DNA of 64,000 nt, taken from assembly GCF_014217685.1 (NCBI RefSeq), contig NZ_CP043653.1, positions 3,228,419-3,292,418 of the forward strand, given 5' to 3'. Each line of letters begins with the position of its first letter. Position 1 is the first letter of the stretch. The position numbers and the translations under genes are program-made. Source of the stretch: Glaciihabitans sp. INWT7. Lineage in GTDB: Bacteria > Actinomycetota > Actinomycetes > Actinomycetales > Microbacteriaceae. A model generated the notes under the pieces. It had not been told where the DNA came from. It saw only the letters and a list, made by a program, of their open reading frames with translations, and did not search any database. Below are positions 3,671 to 12,764 of this stretch, piece by piece.

Positions 3671-4155
3671 CTGGTAGTTCTTGTGCTTTTGTGGATTCTC
3701 AGGGCAGATGAGACTTGCCTCAACACAGATGAGTCTCGGAAAACCGGTTACTTTCTGACGCGGCCACAATTCGCACACGGCGGTGCTCGACTCCCATAGC
3801 CTGAGCTTGGCTTGATCTGCCTGTCACCGTGTTTGTCGGAGCTTGCTCCGATCACAGTTCGCCCTGGTGGATGTGAGATCCGTCCATAACGGTCGACACT
3901 TTACATACCGGCGGTTATCGGTGAAATAGAAAGCCCAGGTCAGAAGGAGTTTATGTGGCTACTAGTGCAATACTTAGCTAAGTTCGTCACTCGTGACATA
4001 ACGCCCCTTCGCGCTGTCTCCTGAGCGCCGCCGTTAAGCCCATCCGCAAGGCGCCCGGTCATCGGGCTTCATGTCGCTGGCATGTATCGACCTCCTGAGG
4101 TGCGATTTCGTCAAACGATCACGCCCCATGGGGCTTGCTCTGCCGACTTGCCTGG
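3671..4155. other. Gene-poor, less GC-rich stretch after tRNA-Gly
   Basis: This 485-bp stretch has no convincing gene of normal size. It contains a tight hairpin (CGGAGC-TT-GCTCCG, 3837-3850), a possible 23-codon ORF (3953-4024), a GCCCG-GTCAT-CGGGC hairpin (4053-4067) and a perfect 12-bp palindrome GCCCCATGGGGC (4123-4134). The last two lie just beyond the end of the leftward cupin gene and could serve as its terminator. It is visibly richer in A/T than its surroundings, consistent with foreign or decayed mobile DNA, but I recognise no integrase remnant. Confidence 0.5.
3953..4024 (+). CDS. Possible 23-residue ORF with strong Shine-Dalgarno sequence
   Basis: ATG-TGG-CTA-CTA begins 3 bases after a near-perfect AGAAGGAG (3942-3949). 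The peptide starts MWLLVQYLAKFVTRD and stops at TGA 4022-4024. The spacing is shorter than ideal. Function is unknown: it could be a leader peptide, or the start of a gene lost from a decayed mobile element. The only support is the ribosome site and the low-GC context. Confidence 0.25.
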   Translation: MWLLVQYLAKFVTRDITPLRAVS

Positions 4156-4560
4156 TTAGCTCGGGTATTCCACAGCGGCGACCTTGTCGCCCCATTCGGT
4201 TTCGGGTTCGTCGCTGGGTGCGGGGGCTTCCCACATCGCGAGGTGGGACATGAAGTTGTCTGCTTGTGCTCCGTGCCAGTGCCATTCGCCGGGCGGTGTG
4301 TAGACGGTGTCACCTGGATGCAGTTCGATGACCTGTTCGCCGCGGGTCTGGACGTATCCGAGGCCCTCGGTCACGTGGAGTGTTTGGCCAACGGCGTGGC
4401 GGTGCCAGGCTGTATGCGCACCTGGCGTGAAGCGCACCAGATTCAGGCGAACACGGGATGGCTCCTGACCCGTGTAATAGGCGTTGAAGTAGACGTCTCC
4501 GGTGAACCACTCATCTGGGCCCTTCACGGTGGAAGTCTTGGGTTGTAGTTGCGTGCTCAC
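4156..4560 (-). CDS. Cupin-domain protein, (R)-mandelonitrile lyase/carboxymuconolactone-type family
   Basis: A 134-residue single-domain cupin. Cupin motif 1 is HTAWHRHAVGQTLHVTEG (about residues 49-66) with three candidate metal His, and motif 2 is HPGDTVYTPPGEWHWHGA (about 81-98). Related proteins lie beside alcohol dehydrogenases and aldo/keto reductases in other bacteria, as here. The exact reaction is unknown. The start is GTG at 4560. Without the adjacent IS, this GTG would overlap the stop of the XRE regulator (GTGA), so the gene was originally translationally coupled to it. It is now separated from that operon by the IS3 element. Confidence 0.85.
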   Translation of the reverse strand: MSTQLQPKTSTVKGPDEWFTGDVYFNAYYTGQEPSRVRLNLVRFTPGAHTAWHRHAVGQTLHVTEGLGYVQTRGEQVIELHPGDTVYTPPGEWHWHGAQADNFMSHLAMWEAPAPSDEPETEWGDKVAAVEYPS

Positions 4561-4616
4561 AGTGTCGCTTTCTGGTTGGTGGTCTGGGTGAGGTTGGCGA
4601 GGAGCTGTAACCGCTC

Positions 4617-4642
4617 GGGACTGCCCCGAGTTCAGTTGACTC
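4617..4642. repeat. IS3-family terminal inverted repeat, orfB end
   Basis: Starts GGGACTGCCCC and ends GTTGACTC. It pairs with the copy at 5843-5868 with four mismatches, all between positions 12 and 18 of the repeat. Confidence 0.9.
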
Positions 4643-4657
4643 GGTGGGTTAGTGGTT

Positions 4658-5521
4658 TCACGCGGCGTTGAGGGCCATGTTTATTGTCTCAAACTCGATC
4701 GGGGTGAGTTTGCCGAGGCGGCGTTGCCGACGCTTGCGATGGTAGGTTCGCTCGATCCAGACCACGATCGCGAGGCGTAGCTCTTCCCTCGTGGCCCATC
4801 GTTGCCGGTCGAGGACGTTCTTTTGCAGGAGGGCGAAGAAGGACTCCATCGCGGCGTTGTCGCCGCATGCGCCGACGCGGCCCATCGACCCGGTGATGGC
4901 GTTGTTCTTCAACACCCGCACGAAGGCGTTGGAGCGGAATTGAGAGCCGCGGTCGGAGTGCAGAATCGTGCCGGCGATGTCGCGTTGCCCGATTGCGTTG
5001 CGGGCCGCAGCGACCGCCAGGGATGCTTTCATTCGGGAGTCGATGGAGTAGCCGACGATCTTGTTCGACCACACGTCCTTGATCGCGCAGAGGTAGATTT
5101 TGCCTTCGTCGGTGCGATGCTCGGTGATGTCCGTCAACCACAGCTGGTTAGGGCGTGTCGCGGTGAAGTTCCGCTGGACATGGTCGTCATGCACGGGCGG
5201 GCCGGCTTTGCCCCTCAGGCCGCGTTTCTTCGCGAACACGGACCAGAGCCGCTGCTGGGAGCAGAGCCGCCAAACCCGGTTCTCGCCCGCCTTCAGGCCA
5301 GCCTGGTTGAGTTCGTCGCTGATGAACCGGTAGCCGAACGCGGGGTCGTCCCGGTGGGCGTCCCACGCCGCGTTGGTCAGGTGAGCGTCGTCCCAATCAC
5401 GTTGCGAGACGGGGTTTCGGAGCCACTGATAGAAGGCTTGTTTGGAGAAGCGCAATACCCGGCAGGTCACCGTGACGGGGACTCCGTCGACGGCCAGTTC
5501 GCGGACCAGCGGGTACATCAT
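4658..5521 (-). CDS. IS3-family transposase OrfB (DDE integrase core)
   Basis: The 287-residue integrase-type half of the transposase. The N-terminal HTH_21-like part is followed by an rve-type core with the DDE triad: Asp in LWLTDITE (about residue 130), Asp in LHSDRGSQF (about 191) and Glu in DNAAMESFFALLQKNV (about 227). The ATG overlaps the orfA stop (ATGA at 5521-5518). The slippery heptamer CCCAAAA ends on the A of this ATG, so a -1 frameshift would also fuse OrfA to OrfB. All expected catalytic residues are present. Confidence 0.96.
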   Translation of the reverse strand: MMYPLVRELAVDGVPVTVTCRVLRFSKQAFYQWLRNPVSQRDWDDAHLTNAAWDAHRDDPAFGYRFISDELNQAGLKAGENRVWRLCSQQRLWSVFAKKRGLRGKAGPPVHDDHVQRNFTATRPNQLWLTDITEHRTDEGKIYLCAIKDVWSNKIVGYSIDSRMKASLAVAAARNAIGQRDIAGTILHSDRGSQFRSNAFVRVLKNNAITGSMGRVGACGDNAAMESFFALLQKNVLDRQRWATREELRLAIVVWIERTYHRKRRQRRLGKLTPIEFETINMALNAA

Positions 5522-5802
5522 TTTGGGTTGACATCCCGGGAGAGGTAGGCGACGGCGCGGCGCATTACCTCGGCTTCCTGCTCCAGCAGCCGGATCCGTT
5601 TCCGCGCCTCCCGCAGCTCAGCCGACTCCTTCTCCGTCACGCCAGGCTTCACCCCCTCTTCGACGTCGGCTTTCTTCAGCCAGTACGCCAGACACGACTC
5701 CGAAATTCCGAAGTCCTTCGCGATCTGGTTCAGCGGGGCTTCGTGCTTGCGAGCGACCGCGACAACATCGCGGCGGAACTCGGGCGGGTAGGGCTTGGGC
5801 AT
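5518..5802 (-). CDS. IS3-family transposase OrfA (helix-turn-helix)
   Basis: The DNA-binding half of the transposase, 94 residues from the ATG at 5802 (MPKPYPPEFRRDVVAVARK), which follows AAGGA by about 8 bases. The HTH covers roughly residues 20-45 (LNQIAKDFGISESCLAYWLKK). The C-terminal part, ELREARKRIRLLEQEAEVM, is a leucine-zipper-like helix typical for OrfA multimerisation. A longer in-frame start at 5835 has no clear ribosome site. The last codons, GTC AAC CCA AAA TGA, contain the C-CCA-AAA slippery site. Confidence 0.93.
   Translation of the reverse strand: MPKPYPPEFRRDVVAVARKHEAPLNQIAKDFGISESCLAYWLKKADVEEGVKPGVTEKESAELREARKRIRLLEQEAEVMRRAVAYLSRDVNPK
5521..5527 (-). promoter_or_regulatory. 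Candidate -1 programmed frameshift heptamer (CCCAAAA)
   Basis: In the orfA frame the bases read C-CCA-AAA directly before TGA, which fits the X-XXY-YYZ slippery pattern. After a -1 slip the next codon is the ATG of orfB, so an OrfAB fusion transposase would result, the usual active form in this family. Confidence 0.6.
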
Positions 5803-5838
5803 GGTGACATCCTTCCAGCGGAGACGAATCTCCACAGG

Positions 5839-6684
5839 TCAAGAGTCAACCAAACCGGGGGCAGTCCCCTCCGCACTCGGCGAGCCTGGCTCCGCGGTGT
5901 AAACCATCAGCGCGAAACTCGGCTCTGCGGTGATCGCGAGTTCCTCGTAGGCAAGCGTGACTTCCCCGACGAGGGGATGGTTGAACCGCTTGGTGCCGGT
6001 GCCGTGGGTGCGCACATCGTGAGCTCCCCATAACTGACGGAACACCTCGCTACGAGTGGACAGTTCTCCGACGAGGTCCTGCAGGGCTTTGTTGTGAGGG
6101 TCACGCCCCGCGCGAGCGCGCATGATCGCGACGCACATGCCGGCGAAGAGGTCCCAGTCGGGGTAGAAGTCGCGCGATGCGGAGTCGAGGAACTGGAACC
6201 GCGCGAGGTTCGGTGTTCGCCCGCCGTCACCGATTATCGGGGAGTAAAACGCACGGCCGAGATCGTTGGTTGCGAGGATGTCCTGATGCATGTTGACGAC
6301 CAAGGCAGGGCCCCCGGTGATCGACCCCAGCATCCATTGCAGGCTCGGCCGGTTGATGGGACTCTTGCCCGACCGACCACGCGGCCGACCGGAAAGCGGG
6401 ATTCCGTCCGCCGCTCGAGCAAGATCGAAGAGGTGGCTGCGCTCGGTATCGTCGAGCTGCAGCGCGCGCGAGACCGCGTCGAGCACGGACGATGATGCCC
6501 CGGCGATCGCACCTCGCTCGAGCTTCGCGTAGTACTCCACGCTGACGCCGGCGAGGGCGGCGACCTCGGAGCGTCGCAGCCCCGCTACCCGCCGGTTGCC
6601 GCCGGCCGTCAGCCCCGCGAGCTCTGGTGTGAGCCGTGCGCGCCGCGACATGAGGAACTCGCGCACCTCGGATTGATTGTCCAT
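5839..6684 (-). CDS. XRE-family regulator with MmyB-like ligand domain, C-terminus replaced by IS3
   Basis: A helix-turn-helix repressor-type protein of 281 residues from the ATG at 6684 (MDNQSEVREFLMSRR). The XRE HTH lies at about 30-75 (LRRSEVAALAGVSVEYYAKLERG). The remainder resembles the MmyB-like ligand-binding domain of actinobacterial redox-cassette regulators, ending in LMVYTAEPGSPSAE. After this Glu the reading frame enters the IS terminal repeat and ends GTAPGLVDS. Excising the IS restores RLQLLANLTQTT and a stop overlapping the cupin GTG. Loss of the last helix may or may not matter for function. It is divergent from the dehydrogenase operon, its likely target. An upstream start at 6762 is less likely. 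Confidence 0.88.
   Translation of the reverse strand: MDNQSEVREFLMSRRARLTPELAGLTAGGNRRVAGLRRSEVAALAGVSVEYYAKLERGAIAGASSSVLDAVSRALQLDDTERSHLFDLARAADGIPLSGRPRGRSGKSPINRPSLQWMLGSITGGPALVVNMHQDILATNDLGRAFYSPIIGDGGRTPNLARFQFLDSASRDFYPDWDLFAGMCVAIMRARAGRDPHNKALQDLVGELSTRSEVFRQLWGAHDVRTHGTGTKRFNHPLVGEVTLAYEELAITAEPSFALMVYTAEPGSPSAEGTAPGLVDS
5843..5868. repeat. IS3-family terminal inverted repeat, orfA end
   Basis: Reverse-complement partner of 4617-4642. It also supplies the last nine codons and the stop of the truncated XRE regulator. Confidence 0.9.
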
Positions 6685-6687
6685 AAT

Positions 6688-6700
6688 CCGTACGTTACGG
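6688..6700. promoter_or_regulatory. Possible operator, CCGTA-CGT-TACGG
   Basis: A perfect 5-bp inverted repeat with a 3-bp centre, three bases upstream of the regulator's ATG and within the 130-bp divergent space to the dehydrogenase gene. XRE regulators often bind such short palindromes at their own promoter. No experiment or second copy supports it. Confidence 0.4.
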
Positions 6701-6814
6701 CCATCCCGCCGCATGTGGGGTCCCCTGCCAGTACACCCTCCAACAGAGACTCCCACGCTCAAGAACGCACGACTTGACTGATCTCACAAGCTTTTCGAAT
6801 CAAAGGGGTGCGCA

Positions 6815-7840
6815 ATGCGTGCAGTACTGATGTACGGACCGGGCGACGTTCGCGTCGAGACACGGGACGCTCCACAGATCATCGACCCCACCGATGCGAT
6901 CATCCGACTCGCTGCAACCTGTATCTGCGGATCGGATCTGTGGCTGTACCGCGGAGCAGAGCCCCTCTCCTCAACGCCTCAGCCGATGGGCCACGAGTAC
7001 ATCGGCATCGTCGAGCAGATCGGCGCGGATGTCAAGAACGTGACGGTCGGTGACTTCGTCGTAGGCTCCTTTGTCGCCTCCGATAACACGTGCGAGATCT
7101 GCCAGGCCGGCTATCAGTCCCGCTGCATCCACAACGTCATGATGGGCTCCGTCGGAACACAGGCCGAACTCGCCCGCATCCCTCTCGCCGACGGCACCCT
7201 CGTCGCAACCCCGGGACAACCGGATGCCGATCTGATCCCATCCCTGATGGCGGCATCCGACGTGCTCGGCACCGGCTGGTACGGGAGCGTCGCGGCTGAG
7301 GCTGGACCCGGAAAGACGATCGCGATCGTGGGCGATGGCGCCGTCGGCCTGTCGGCAGTGCTGGCTGCGAATCACCTGGGGGCGAAGCGCATCATCATGT
7401 TCAGCCGCCACCCGGAACGCCAAGCTCTCGCCCGCGCATTCGGCGCGACCGACATCATCGAAGAGCGCGGCGATGAGGGCGCAGCGAAAGTCAAGGAACT
7501 GACCGGCGGATACGGAGCCCATGGCACAGTCGAGGCGGTCGGCACCCAAGAGTCCATGTGGCAGGCGATCAATGCAACCCGGGCCGGAGGGTACGTCGGC
7601 TATGTCGGCGTCTCCCACGGTGTCGAGCTTGACGGCTTGAACCTGTTCTTCAGGAGCGTTCACCTGCACGGTGGACCGGCACCGGTGCGCCAGTACCTGC
7701 CGGAGCTGATAGAGCTCATCTGGAACCGCACCATCGACCCCGGCAGGGTGTTCGACCTGACACTTTCCATCGAAGACGCAGCCGAGGGCTACAAGGCGAT
7801 GGATGAGCGGCGCGCGACCAAGGTACTGCTGACCTTCTAG
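6815..7840 (+). CDS. Zinc-dependent alcohol dehydrogenase (medium-chain)
   Basis: A 341-residue medium-chain NAD(P)-dependent oxidoreductase. Catalytic-zinc ligands are suggested by CICGSD (Cys38) and GHEYIG (about residues 59-64). A structural-zinc-like run CEICQAGYQSRC has only three Cys rather than four. The Rossmann motif is VGDGAVGLSA (about 172-181). It is divergent from the XRE regulator and heads a tightly packed rightward run (MFS gene 5 bp downstream). With the neighbouring reductases it probably handles aldehydes or ketones; the substrate is unknown. Confidence 0.92.
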   Translation: MRAVLMYGPGDVRVETRDAPQIIDPTDAIIRLAATCICGSDLWLYRGAEPLSSTPQPMGHEYIGIVEQIGADVKNVTVGDFVVGSFVASDNTCEICQAGYQSRCIHNVMMGSVGTQAELARIPLADGTLVATPGQPDADLIPSLMAASDVLGTGWYGSVAAEAGPGKTIAIVGDGAVGLSAVLAANHLGAKRIIMFSRHPERQALARAFGATDIIEERGDEGAAKVKELTGGYGAHGTVEAVGTQESMWQAINATRAGGYVGYVGVSHGVELDGLNLFFRSVHLHGGPAPVRQYLPELIELIWNRTIDPGRVFDLTLSIEDAAEGYKAMDERRATKVLLTF

Positions 7841-7845
7841 AGCCA

Positions 7846-9078
7846 GTGAAGAATCCCGTGAACACCACGTCACCAGCGCCCGAACACGCGACCGCATTCG
7901 CGGAACAGAAGGCGCGACTCCCGATTGTCACCCTGGTACTCTTGGCGGTGATCGGGTTTGTGCTCATCACAATGGAGACCCTGCCCGCCGGCCTCCTCCC
8001 GGTGATCGCTGACGGACTGAACACCAGCGAGGTCTCCGTCGGGCTGCTCGTCAGCGCCTACGCGCTTGGCACTGTCATAGTCACCATCCCTGCAATCTCC
8101 CTCACCCGATCACTTCGACGCAAACCATTGCTGCTCGCCGCCATAGCCGGGCTGATCACTGCGAACACACTGACCGCGATCTCGAACGACCTTGTCCTCG
8201 CCTTGTCGAGTCGATTCATCGCCGGCGCCTTCTCCGGGATCATCTGGGGAATGCTCGCGGCCTACGGGCTGAAGATCAGCCCACAGAACCGGGCCGGCCG
8301 TGCCTTAGCTATCGTCTCCGCCGGGGCACCGATGGGGTTCGCGCTTGGCACACCGCTCGGTTCCTGGCTAGGCACGGCCCTCGACTGGCGGTGGGCTTTC
8401 ATCGCCCTCAGTCTCCTCGCCCTCATCGCGTCAGTGGCGCTGGCACTCGTAGCGCCGGACGCCGCGGGCCAGGATTCGCAATCCGGGCGCGAGAGGATGC
8501 CGGTCGTGCGCGTGTTCCGCCTGCCCGGAGTTGCCATCACCCTCGCCGTGATCTTCGCCTGGATGCTCGCCTCGAACACCGTTTACACCTACCTCACTCC
8601 GTACCTGCGAACCAGTGACGGCAGCCTCCACGTCGATATGCAACTTTTCATCTTCGGGGTGTCATCCGTTGCCGGGATTGCTTTGGTTGGGGCGCTCCTC
8701 GACCGGCATCCTCGTCTGCTCCTGCACGGGAGCCTCGTGGTGTTCACGGCCGCCGCCGTGACGCTCCTCGTCGGCCATGCCTCCACCCCGGCGATCATCA
8801 TCGCCACCGTTTTGTGGGGCGTGACTTTCGGGGGAGCACCCGCGCAGCTGCAGGCGGCGCTCACCACGTCAGGCGGACGCGATTCGGATGTTGCCAACTC
8901 GTTCCTGCCGGTCGCGTTCAACGTCGCGATATTCGTTGCCGGGATCCTGGGTGCCGCACTGCTGGCCGGGCTCGATGGCCTGGCGCTCCCGATCGTGATG
9001 ATTGTGTTCGGCCTCATCGCTTTCGCGCTCACCATCGTCGGCCGGCGCACCGCCTTTTCGGCCCCCCAGGCCAGTTAG
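7846..9078 (+). CDS. MFS transporter, drug/arabinose-efflux type
   Basis: A 410-residue, 12-helix major facilitator. The first helix starts near residue 25 (LVLLAVIGFVLITMETLPAG), the loop 2-3 region reads SLTRSLRRKPLL, and motif-C-like glycines and prolines sit in helix 5 (SAGAPMGFALGTPLGSWLG), typical of proton-driven antiporters. It starts at GTG 7846, 5 bp after the dehydrogenase stop, with no separate promoter, so it belongs to the same transcript. It may export the product or toxic substrate of the enzymes around it. Confidence 0.9.
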   Translation: MKNPVNTTSPAPEHATAFAEQKARLPIVTLVLLAVIGFVLITMETLPAGLLPVIADGLNTSEVSVGLLVSAYALGTVIVTIPAISLTRSLRRKPLLLAAIAGLITANTLTAISNDLVLALSSRFIAGAFSGIIWGMLAAYGLKISPQNRAGRALAIVSAGAPMGFALGTPLGSWLGTALDWRWAFIALSLLALIASVALALVAPDAAGQDSQSGRERMPVVRVFRLPGVAITLAVIFAWMLASNTVYTYLTPYLRTSDGSLHVDMQLFIFGVSSVAGIALVGALLDRHPRLLLHGSLVVFTAAAVTLLVGHASTPAIIIATVLWGVTFGGAPAQLQAALTTSGGRDSDVANSFLPVAFNVAIFVAGILGAALLAGLDGLALPIVMIVFGLIAFALTIVGRRTAFSAPQAS

Positions 9079-9619: not shown

Positions 9620-10507
9620 ATGTCGGACATCACCATCACTGTGAATAATGGCGCACTGCTGCCAGCACTGGGTCTTGGCGTACTGCAGAGCGAGGGTGGG
9701 GAGGCCACCTCGGCGGTCTCGACCGCGCTGCGGTCGGGTTACCGCTTGATTGACACCGCGGCCGCCTACTTCAAGGAGCGTGAGGTGGGGCAGGGTATCC
9801 GAGACTCAGGGGTCGATCGCGCTGACGTGTTCCTCACAACGAAGCTCTGGATGACCGATTACGGCTTCGACGCCGCGCTTCGCGCTTTCGACACCAGCAT
9901 TGCGAAGCTCGGCGTTGACTACCTCGACCTCTACCTGTTGCACTGGCCGTGGCCGACCAATTTTGCAGAGACGGTCGCGTCGTATCGAGCGGCAGAGCGA
10001 CTGCTCACCGAGGGCCGCGTGCGCGCGATCGGGGTGGCGAACTTCAAGGCCGAGCACCTGCGCGCCCTTGTGAGCGAGACAGACATCGTGCCTGCCGTTA
10101 ACCAGATCGAGTTGCACCCCAACTTTCAGCAGCCCGACCAGGTCGCGCTGCACCGGGAGCTTGGCATCGTGACGCAGGCCTGGTCGCCGATCGGCGGCGT
10201 GTACGGCTGGGCGGGCGAGAACGGCGCCACTCCGCCCCTGCGGAACGAGACGATCACGGCTATCGCGCAGGCACGCGGCAAGACTCCCGCGCAAGTCATT
10301 CTGCGTTGGCACCTCCAGGAGGGACGCAGCGCCATACCAAAATCCGTGAAACCCGAGCGAATCGCGGAGAACATCGATGTCTTCGACTTCGACCTCACCG
10401 CCGACGAACTTACGGCCATCGACAAACTCGACACCGGGGCGCGCGGGGCAATCGACCCCGACATCGCGACCCCGGAACTCATCGACCTCACCATCGATGC
10501 CGCCTAA
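9620..10507 (+). CDS. Aldo/keto reductase (2,5-diketogluconate reductase-like), first copy
   Basis: A 295-residue TIM-barrel NADPH-dependent reductase. The catalytic tetrad is visible: Asp and Tyr in LIDTAAAYFKE (about residues 44-54), Lys in TTKLW (about 75) and His in LLHWPWP (about 108). The NADPH-binding tail IPKSVKPERIAENIDVFDF is present near 236-254. It is followed 24 bp later by a paralogue sharing most of these motifs, so the pair is an in-place duplication or a functional pair. It reduces aldehydes or ketones; the true substrate is unknown. Confidence 0.93.
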   Translation: MSDITITVNNGALLPALGLGVLQSEGGEATSAVSTALRSGYRLIDTAAAYFKEREVGQGIRDSGVDRADVFLTTKLWMTDYGFDAALRAFDTSIAKLGVDYLDLYLLHWPWPTNFAETVASYRAAERLLTEGRVRAIGVANFKAEHLRALVSETDIVPAVNQIELHPNFQQPDQVALHRELGIVTQAWSPIGGVYGWAGENGATPPLRNETITAIAQARGKTPAQVILRWHLQEGRSAIPKSVKPERIAENIDVFDFDLTADELTAIDKLDTGARGAIDPDIATPELIDLTIDAA

Positions 10508-10531: not shown

Positions 10532-11422
10532 ATGAATCAGCACATAACCCTGAACAACGGAATGAGCATCCCCGCGCTCGGCTTTGGAGTGTTCCAGAGC
10601 GCCCCGGAGGAGACGACCGCCGCAGTCGAGCAGGCGCTCAACGCCGGATACCGCCATATCGACACCGCCGCCGGGTACGGCAACGAGCGCGAGGTCGGGG
10701 AGGCCATCCGACGCTCCGGGATCGAGCGGAACGACATCGTGATCGAGACAAAGGTATGGGTGAGCGATTACGGCTACGACGAGACGCTGCACGCGTTCGA
10801 GAAGAGCGCGACGAAACTCGGCGTCGCGCAGATCGACCTGCTGATCCTGCACCAGCCAATGCCGCAGCACTTCGAGCGCACCGTGCAGGCGTACCGCGCT
10901 CTCGAGCAATTGCTCACCGATGGGCGGGTGCGCGCGATCGGGGTCAGTAACTTCATGCCGAACCACCTTGCCGCGCTCCGTGAGCAGACCGAGGTCGTGC
11001 CGGCTGTCAACCAGGTGGAGCTGCACCCGTACTTCACCCAGCCGAACGTGCAACGGGCGAACGCCGAGCACGGCATCCTCACCCAGGCGTGGTCGCCAAT
11101 CGGCGGTATCACCTTCTACCCCGGCTGGGGCGACGACACTCGCCGAAGCATGCTCGACGATGAGACGATCGGTCGCATCGCGGAGGCGCACGGAAAAACG
11201 CCGGCACAGGTGATGCTGCGATGGCACATCCAGGAGGGCAGGTCGGCGATACCCAAATCGACGAACCCTGAGCGCATCACCCAGAACATCGACGTCTTCG
11301 ACTTCGAGCTCGCCACCGATGAGCTCTCGGACATCGACGCCCTCGACCGTGGAGTGCGCGGCGGTCCCGATCCTGACGAGGTCGACCCCTCGACCTGGGA
11401 TCTCACTATCCCCGAAGCCTGA
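10532..11422 (+). CDS. Aldo/keto reductase, second copy
   Basis: 296 residues, with the same family and layout as the preceding gene. The tetrad lies in YRHIDTAAGYGNE, IETKVW and LILHQPMP; the cofactor tail is IPKSTNPERITQNIDVFDF. The middle loop (ITFYPGWGDDTRRSM) differs clearly from the first copy, hinting at a different substrate pocket. It starts at ATG 10532 after a GGAGAG ribosome site. It is the last intact gene of the rightward reductase run. Confidence 0.93.
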   Translation: MNQHITLNNGMSIPALGFGVFQSAPEETTAAVEQALNAGYRHIDTAAGYGNEREVGEAIRRSGIERNDIVIETKVWVSDYGYDETLHAFEKSATKLGVAQIDLLILHQPMPQHFERTVQAYRALEQLLTDGRVRAIGVSNFMPNHLAALREQTEVVPAVNQVELHPYFTQPNVQRANAEHGILTQAWSPIGGITFYPGWGDDTRRSMLDDETIGRIAEAHGKTPAQVMLRWHIQEGRSAIPKSTNPERITQNIDVFDFELATDELSDIDALDRGVRGGPDPDEVDPSTWDLTIPEA

Positions 11423-12090: not shown

Positions 12091-12380
12091 CGGTGCACCT
12101 CGATTCCTTGATTGTTTGTCAACGATCGTCGTGATCGTCCATCGTTGTCAAGAAGCTGGGTACTTGGCCGCTAATAGTGCCTCTCCAGCGAGAGGCCGTC
12201 GCTAGGGAAATCGTGCGGCGAGGAAACGAGGTACTCCCTGGTGTGTAAGACGTTCCCGCTATCGAGCAGTGCACTCAAGACTTCGAGCGTTCGCGCAACC
12301 TAAGCGCACGAGAGGGTCTTGGCGGGCGATCGAGAGTGTGCCCGGCCGGACGAGCTCCCGCCCCGGGCCATGATGGTGTC

Positions 12381-12764
12381 ATGACTGCTCTTCAGGGAAT
12401 CGACATCGCCGCCGAACTTCGCCAGGTGAAGACGCATTGGCATCCGCGGGTCGTCGGGCGCGTGAACGACCAGTACGTGAAGGTCGCGAAGCTGCTCGGC
12501 GAGCTGGTCTGGCATTCTCACGACGCCGAAGATGAAATGTTCCTCGTCGTGTCGGGTCGGCTTCGAATCCAGCTGCCTGACGACGAGGAGGTTGTACTCA
12601 CCCCGGGTCAGTTCTACGTCGTACCGCGCGGCGTGAAGCACAACCCCATCGCCAACGAGGAGGTGGAGATCGTTCTGATCGAGACGGTCACCACCGCCCA
12701 CACGGGCGACGTGGTGATCGACGGCACCGTATCCGTGGAGCGGCAGATCGGTGATTTCCGGTGA
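12381..12764 (+). CDS. Cupin-domain protein
   Basis: 127 residues from the ATG at 12381 (MTALQGIDIAAELRQVK). A single small-barrel cupin: HSHDAEDEMFLVVSGRLRIQL carries the motif-1 His/Glu metal ligands (about residues 45-65), and LTPGQFYVVPRGVKHNP is motif 2 with the last His. Proteins of this shape include isomerases, dioxygenases and binding proteins, so function is open. An in-frame start 45 bases upstream lacks a ribosome site. It stands alone, with 150-bp and larger gaps on both sides. Confidence 0.82.
   Translation: MTALQGIDIAAELRQVKTHWHPRVVGRVNDQYVKVAKLLGELVWHSHDAEDEMFLVVSGRLRIQLPDDEEVVLTPGQFYVVPRGVKHNPIANEEVEIVLIETVTTAHTGDVVIDGTVSVERQIGDFR

Follow-up and report, generated by a model that had tools for sequence, protein, structure and literature searches.

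What becomes of a ligand-responsive regulator, and of the gene that follows it, when a mobile element lands in the regulator's last codons? The question is raised by a locus in the window, the 64,000-bp stretch of the Glaciihabitans sp. INWT7 genome analyzed here (C1:3228419-3292418), in which an XRE/MmyB-type regulator gene (5839..6684, minus strand), a 1252-bp IS3-family insertion sequence (4617..5868) and a cupin gene (4156..4560, minus strand) succeed one another. Very probably, an active IS3 element hit the last codons of the regulator, truncating it and separating it from the cupin, with functional consequences that we infer. The event is clear-cut, yet of an ordinary kind for insertion sequences; what it adds is that the lost segment is conserved and may line a ligand pocket.

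The element is bounded by inverted ends of 26 nt each (85% complementary), which a repeat search placed at 4617..4642, behind the transposase genes, and at 5843..5868, before them. Outside these ends lies a target-site duplication, CTC, with its left copy at 4614..4616 and its right copy at 5869..5871, recognized by comparing the flanks with those of other copies. The transposase genes are on the minus strand. OrfA (5518..5835, Pfam HTH_Tnp_1) is listed from a GTG and may instead start at an ATG at about 5802; its stop overlaps the ATG of OrfB (4658..5521, minus strand, Pfam rve integrase core) as ATGA, preceded by CCCAAA. Against the NCBIfam model NF033516 (IS3 transposase, cut-off 160), OrfB scores 269 bits, and OrfA alone scores 38 bits over the N-terminal part only, the cut-off being one for the whole protein. 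Overlapping OrfA and OrfB, an rve core, a length of about 1.25 kb, imperfect terminal repeats and a 3-bp target duplication are common to this element and the IS3 family, no difference from the family was found, and both the transposase model and the inverted repeats with their short duplication support the assignment. A Cryobacterium plasmid carries a full-length copy, 88% identical, that is annotated as an IS3 family transposase.

Searching the whole genome (two contigs, 3.48 Mb) returned 14 matches to the element, the flanks of all of which were compared. Twelve are identical over 1252 bp, two of them on the second contig (149 kb), one is 98% identical and one 72%. The borders are exact and common to all 12 identical copies, and the sequence outside the borders differs. 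This degree of identity suggests recent activity of the element. An exact 3-bp direct repeat flanks nine of the 12, the copy in the regulator included. These shared borders and repeats, together with the transposase score, uphold the claim of the preliminary description that an IS3 element had inserted here with duplication of its target. The three identical copies that lack a 3-bp duplication suggest recombination between copies or adjacent deletions. At the aligned ends of the 72% relative (L021, G000:C1:490023-491285) there is no 3-bp direct repeat; by eye, its flanks show the inverted pair TTGCGAAT/ATTCGCAA.

The regulator reading frame ends in GSPSAEGTAPGLVDS, with a TGA at 5841-5839. Residues 1-272 are native, and the final nine, GTAPGLVDS (273-281), come from the end of the insertion sequence and are present in the 12 identical copies; most of this new C-terminus is the minus-strand reading of the inverted repeat before the transposase genes. 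The severed 3′ end of the regulator gene lies on the far side of the element (4557..4613, minus strand) and codes for RLQLLANLTQTTNQKATL followed by a stop; read by itself in the regulator frame, the left flank gives ERLQLLANLTQTTNQKATL and a stop (E-RLQLLANLTQTTNQKATL-stop). The last 18 residues have been exchanged for nine encoded by the element. The old stop, TGA at 4559-4557, is overlapped by the cupin start, GTG at 4560, as GTGA. The inverted ends, the duplication, the nine-residue end and the GTGA overlap all lie where the preliminary description had placed them. Its two further claims, of a replaced regulator end and of a split regulator-cupin pair, are likewise sustained by a lost motif that stands in frame just beyond the element and by a left flank that runs in the regulator frame to the stop overlapping the cupin. 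The allele before insertion is predicted to have read GSPSAERLQLLANLTQ..., that is, GSPSAERLQLLANLTQTTNQKATL into the cupin. The nearest relative, L024 (regulator 87% and dehydrogenase 88% identical, the dehydrogenase in the same place), reads GSPSAERLQLLANL at the junction (GSPSAERLQLLANLATSDG...; GSPSAERLQLLANLATSDGIRTAPQSTGWK), which is the predicted junction. It shares RLQLLANL exactly with the left flank, including an L where most relatives have W.

Regulators from 91 relatives were compared at this position: L024, the best 80 of 565 confirmed stretches from a named genome collection, and 10 from a family search. They are not all independent, since at least four pairs are identical between two collections and several others come from sister species. 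Each of the 91 carries the motif [LVM]L[AG][SNA][WLYF] after residue 268, where the window has GTAPGLVDS. GTAPG occurs in none of the 91. With the motif at the junction in every relative, chance is, in our judgement, not a reasonable account. The alignment of relatives' C-termini, proposed beforehand as a check, accordingly revealed no natural GTAPGLVDS end, and the candidate explanation that regulators of this kind are naturally short in relatives was rejected on the same two counts. Matches to the window regulator stop where its native part stops: among the best 80 of the 565 stretches, the match covers residues 1-272 in 78, 1-271 in one and 1-273 in one, and in a set of 99 genomes that includes the window's own, 60 match at 1e-20, the top 24 after the self match ending at residue 271-274. 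No close orthologue of the regulator was found in 12 genomes of the same genus (best about 55%), and its own genome contains one further match at 1e-20, at 43%, with no close second copy.

The regulator matches PF17765 (MLTR_LBD, 184 bits) and PF13560 (HTH_31), both above cut-off. The match to PF17765 breaks off at position 162 of the 168 in the profile, whereas all six intact relatives scanned reach 168 of 168, and by this profile comparison the lost segment completes the ligand-binding domain. Judged by sequence, the regulator is a member of the MmyB/MltR family by descent, in the form of a truncated copy. It has in common with that family (3pxp; PF17765) the HTH and MLTR_LBD domains, a PAS-like ligand domain and a divergent dehydrogenase gene. 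It differs from the family in that an insertion sequence has removed the C-terminal part of its ligand domain, whose complete end is absent.

Searched singly against the PDB, the regulator sequence gave no match at 0.001. A profile search of the regulator family finds MltR, with 3pxp the only family structure found, and 3pxp is also the best Foldseek match (TM about 0.45). The profile alignment sets SPSAERL, an SPxxxxL segment where the lost part starts, on residues 263-269 of MltR and goes no further, so that it covers just two residues of the lost part. The portion of PMC3406030 that deals with the MltR fold assigns the ligand cavity to the sheet together with helices H7-H11 and H14, and describes H14-S6 as a C-terminal addition to the PAS fold. 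The lost segment probably corresponds to H14 and would have formed part of the cavity. In the AlphaFold2 model of the intact L024 regulator (overall pLDDT 83.9) a C-terminal helix spans 269-284, with mean pLDDT of 95 over 261-270 and 92 over 271-280. The corresponding means for the window regulator are 70 and 55 (overall 76.5), a weak comparison given how widely its five models vary, with scores between 76.5 and 55.2. A low-confidence helix is still drawn over 269-280. The models thus agree with damage, short of proving it, and the IS-encoded residues might replace part of the lost helix.

On the other side of the regulator, across a 130-bp spacer, lies a divergent zinc-dependent dehydrogenase gene (6815..7840, plus strand; PF00107, PF08240), the presumed target, followed in the same cluster by an MFS transporter gene (7846..9078, plus strand; PF07690). 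MFS matches are found near the same regulator in eight of the ten loci L178-L187. In the parts of PMC3406030 concerned with Streptomyces coelicolor, 15 of 16 MmyB/MltR members are divergent from a putative target, and members that are not beside antibiotic-related genes adjoin SDR or MDR genes. The divergent dehydrogenase in the window is the layout that the same parts of that paper give for many family members. The spacer holds an operator-like element (6717..6754) of the form GGGGT.CCCTG ... GTACACC ... CAG.GACTCCC. Forty-five spacers were aligned, comprising the window and those 44 of the 91 relatives in which the start regions of both genes were matched and the spacer measured 60-260 bp, and the element (GGGGT.CCCTG...GTACACC...CAGGGACTCCC) is largely conserved over them, the window copy having a few changes. 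This inverted element with its GTACACC core is a candidate operator for the regulator subfamily. The HTH domain and the operator-like element are kept while the ligand domain has lost its end, which means that the DNA-binding part and a likely operator remain.

On the favoured account, an MmyB/MltR-type regulator gene was hit in its final codons by an active IS3-family element of 1252 bp, and 3 bp were duplicated. Residues 1-272 of the regulator are kept, the last 18, with most of the conserved C-terminal helix, are lost, and nine from the element are gained. The cupin has been pushed about 1.26 kb further downstream with its stop-start coupling gone, and can now be transcribed only via read-through, an IS promoter or a promoter of its own. 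In the truncated protein the DNA-binding domain would still fold and meet its operator, ligand sensing would be poor or absent, and cupin output would be reduced or uncoupled. It is possible, although on balance we doubt it, that the insertion is functionally neutral, the regulator tolerating the loss of its C-terminus and the transcript of the regulator or of the transposase genes reading through into the cupin, which is thus still expressed. The remaining regulator frame is open, and a scan of 4100-6900 shows the minus strand to hold no terminator-like site, so that read-through to the cupin is possible (the plus strand there has three such sites, against a shuffled mean of 2.3). Tails after the motif number 6 to 38 residues among the relatives, which puts a short native tail in the window within range, and the low-confidence helix at the new end of the window model also fits neutrality. 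Against it, the part lost comprises the last positions of the domain model and holds the motif that every relative has.

Damage of the proposed kind could have made the regulator blind to its ligand in one step and left its operator and DNA-binding part untouched. The dehydrogenase-MFS cluster would then be stuck in a single state and the cupin set free; this stronger form of the proposal is unlikely enough to be offered only tentatively. If true, it would make the strain a natural test of the role of the last helix in a little-studied family. The insertion is clean, recent by copy identity, and its effect on the protein can be defined residue by residue. The lost segment is probably the helix that 3pxp places at the ligand cavity, and comparison with an intact relative could show whether it is needed for sensing.

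The element could also serve as a mobile promoter, with the cupin now driven from it and no longer tied to the regulator. Outward or junction promoters occur in IS3-family elements, and the transposase genes here point towards the cupin, the orientation needed. A literature search for outward promoters in IS3-family elements returned no relevant paper, and no promoter-like site was found on either strand in 4100-6900 with an E. coli-type consensus that is weak for high-GC actinobacteria. We regard such a promoter as improbable. That the two flanks were joined by recombination between two copies of the element, rather than by simple insertion, is scarcely credible, for although the identical copies without a duplication indicate that such events may occur in this genome, the copy in the regulator has its duplication and its flanks are two parts of one gene. 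That GTAPGLVDS is the regulator's natural end, with an accidental likeness beyond the element, found no support and can be set aside, since those residues are IS-encoded and GTAPG recurs in none of the 91 relatives.

How old was the arrangement that the element disrupted? The preliminary description had taken regulator followed by cupin as the ancestral layout, and this stands for the state just before insertion but does not extend to the family at large. Among the best 80 of the 565 loci, eight have a same-strand cupin after the regulator, its match starting no more than 180 bp from the stop, whereas in 26 it lies upstream on the opposite strand, on the dehydrogenase side. Three carry it on the other strand at 2-2.6 kb downstream, and 43 have no cupin match in the stretch covered, some of these stretches ending at contig ends. 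A dehydrogenase match was found on the same side in 22 of the 26 upstream-cupin loci and none in four; two of the 26 (L129, L158) have their cupin at a distance of over 5 kb. The regulator stop and the cupin start overlap as ATGA in L027, from the same family, and in L160 (Microbacterium telephonicum), the latter without a divergent dehydrogenase; these two establish that coupled pairs of this kind exist. L177 has a truncated regulator-like frame, matching residues 1-56 only, that ends a few bases short of a same-strand cupin, possibly a decayed pair. As L027, L160, L116, L128 and L129 illustrate, the cupin is found on either arm of the divergent locus, differing by lineage, and this suggests joint action of cupin, dehydrogenase and regulator.

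A cupin tree was built from 62 sequences after eight duplicates and short or weak matches had been dropped; three rows have very long branches. The window cupin groups with five others, all of them behind a dehydrogenase gene, in a well-supported clade (starred, 99/99). Labels for cupin position, assigned by hand with 20 rows left unlabelled, change nine times on the tree, at least five of these changes being forced by starred branches, and are weakly clustered, with 33-34 of 500 shuffles as low. From the tree and the locus positions, the cupin seems to have changed place around such regulators more than once.

Among 398 family genomes evenly drawn from a larger group, 18, the window's own included, have such a cupin at 1e-55. 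This search added 15 new loci. Within 1.5 kb of their cupin, a convergent regulator (about 51%) is present in 11, a co-directional regulator fragment in one and no regulator match in three; a regulator of at least 75% identity stands beside the cupin in none of the 15. Family searches covering 398 genomes each, with 1.5 kb on each side, found no locus combining a regulator of at least 80% with a cupin of at least 65%. For an uninterrupted copy in a plasmid collection, 223 records match and none has one place covering 80% of the query; in the 20 records listed the match is the insertion sequence itself. The exact uninterrupted pair turned up in none of the genomes searched, and the pre-insertion state accordingly rests on the flanks and on the regulators of other relatives. 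On these gene orders, regulator and cupin were already adjacent before the element arrived, an arrangement that most relatives do not have, and the GTGA overlap is not necessarily an old feature of this lineage.

The cupin itself scores 158 bits against NF049940 ((R)-mandelonitrile lyase), above the equivalog cut-off of 140. The closest solved structures are 4bif (E 2.8e-28) and 4uxa, both of which we take to be hydroxynitrile lyases. It aligns with 4bif over the pattern H.H...Q and a later H, presumably the metal ligands. It passes the family cut-off and has this pattern in common with the cupin (R)-mandelonitrile (hydroxynitrile) lyases; unlike the known ones, it is linked to an MmyB-type regulator, and its activity is a predicted one. 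At 1e-10 it is the sole match of its kind in its own genome, with no close second copy. Elsewhere in the window, beyond the MFS transporter gene, are an aldo/keto reductase gene (9620-10507; PF00248), followed by a frame that looks similar (10532-11422), and a further cupin gene (12336-12764).
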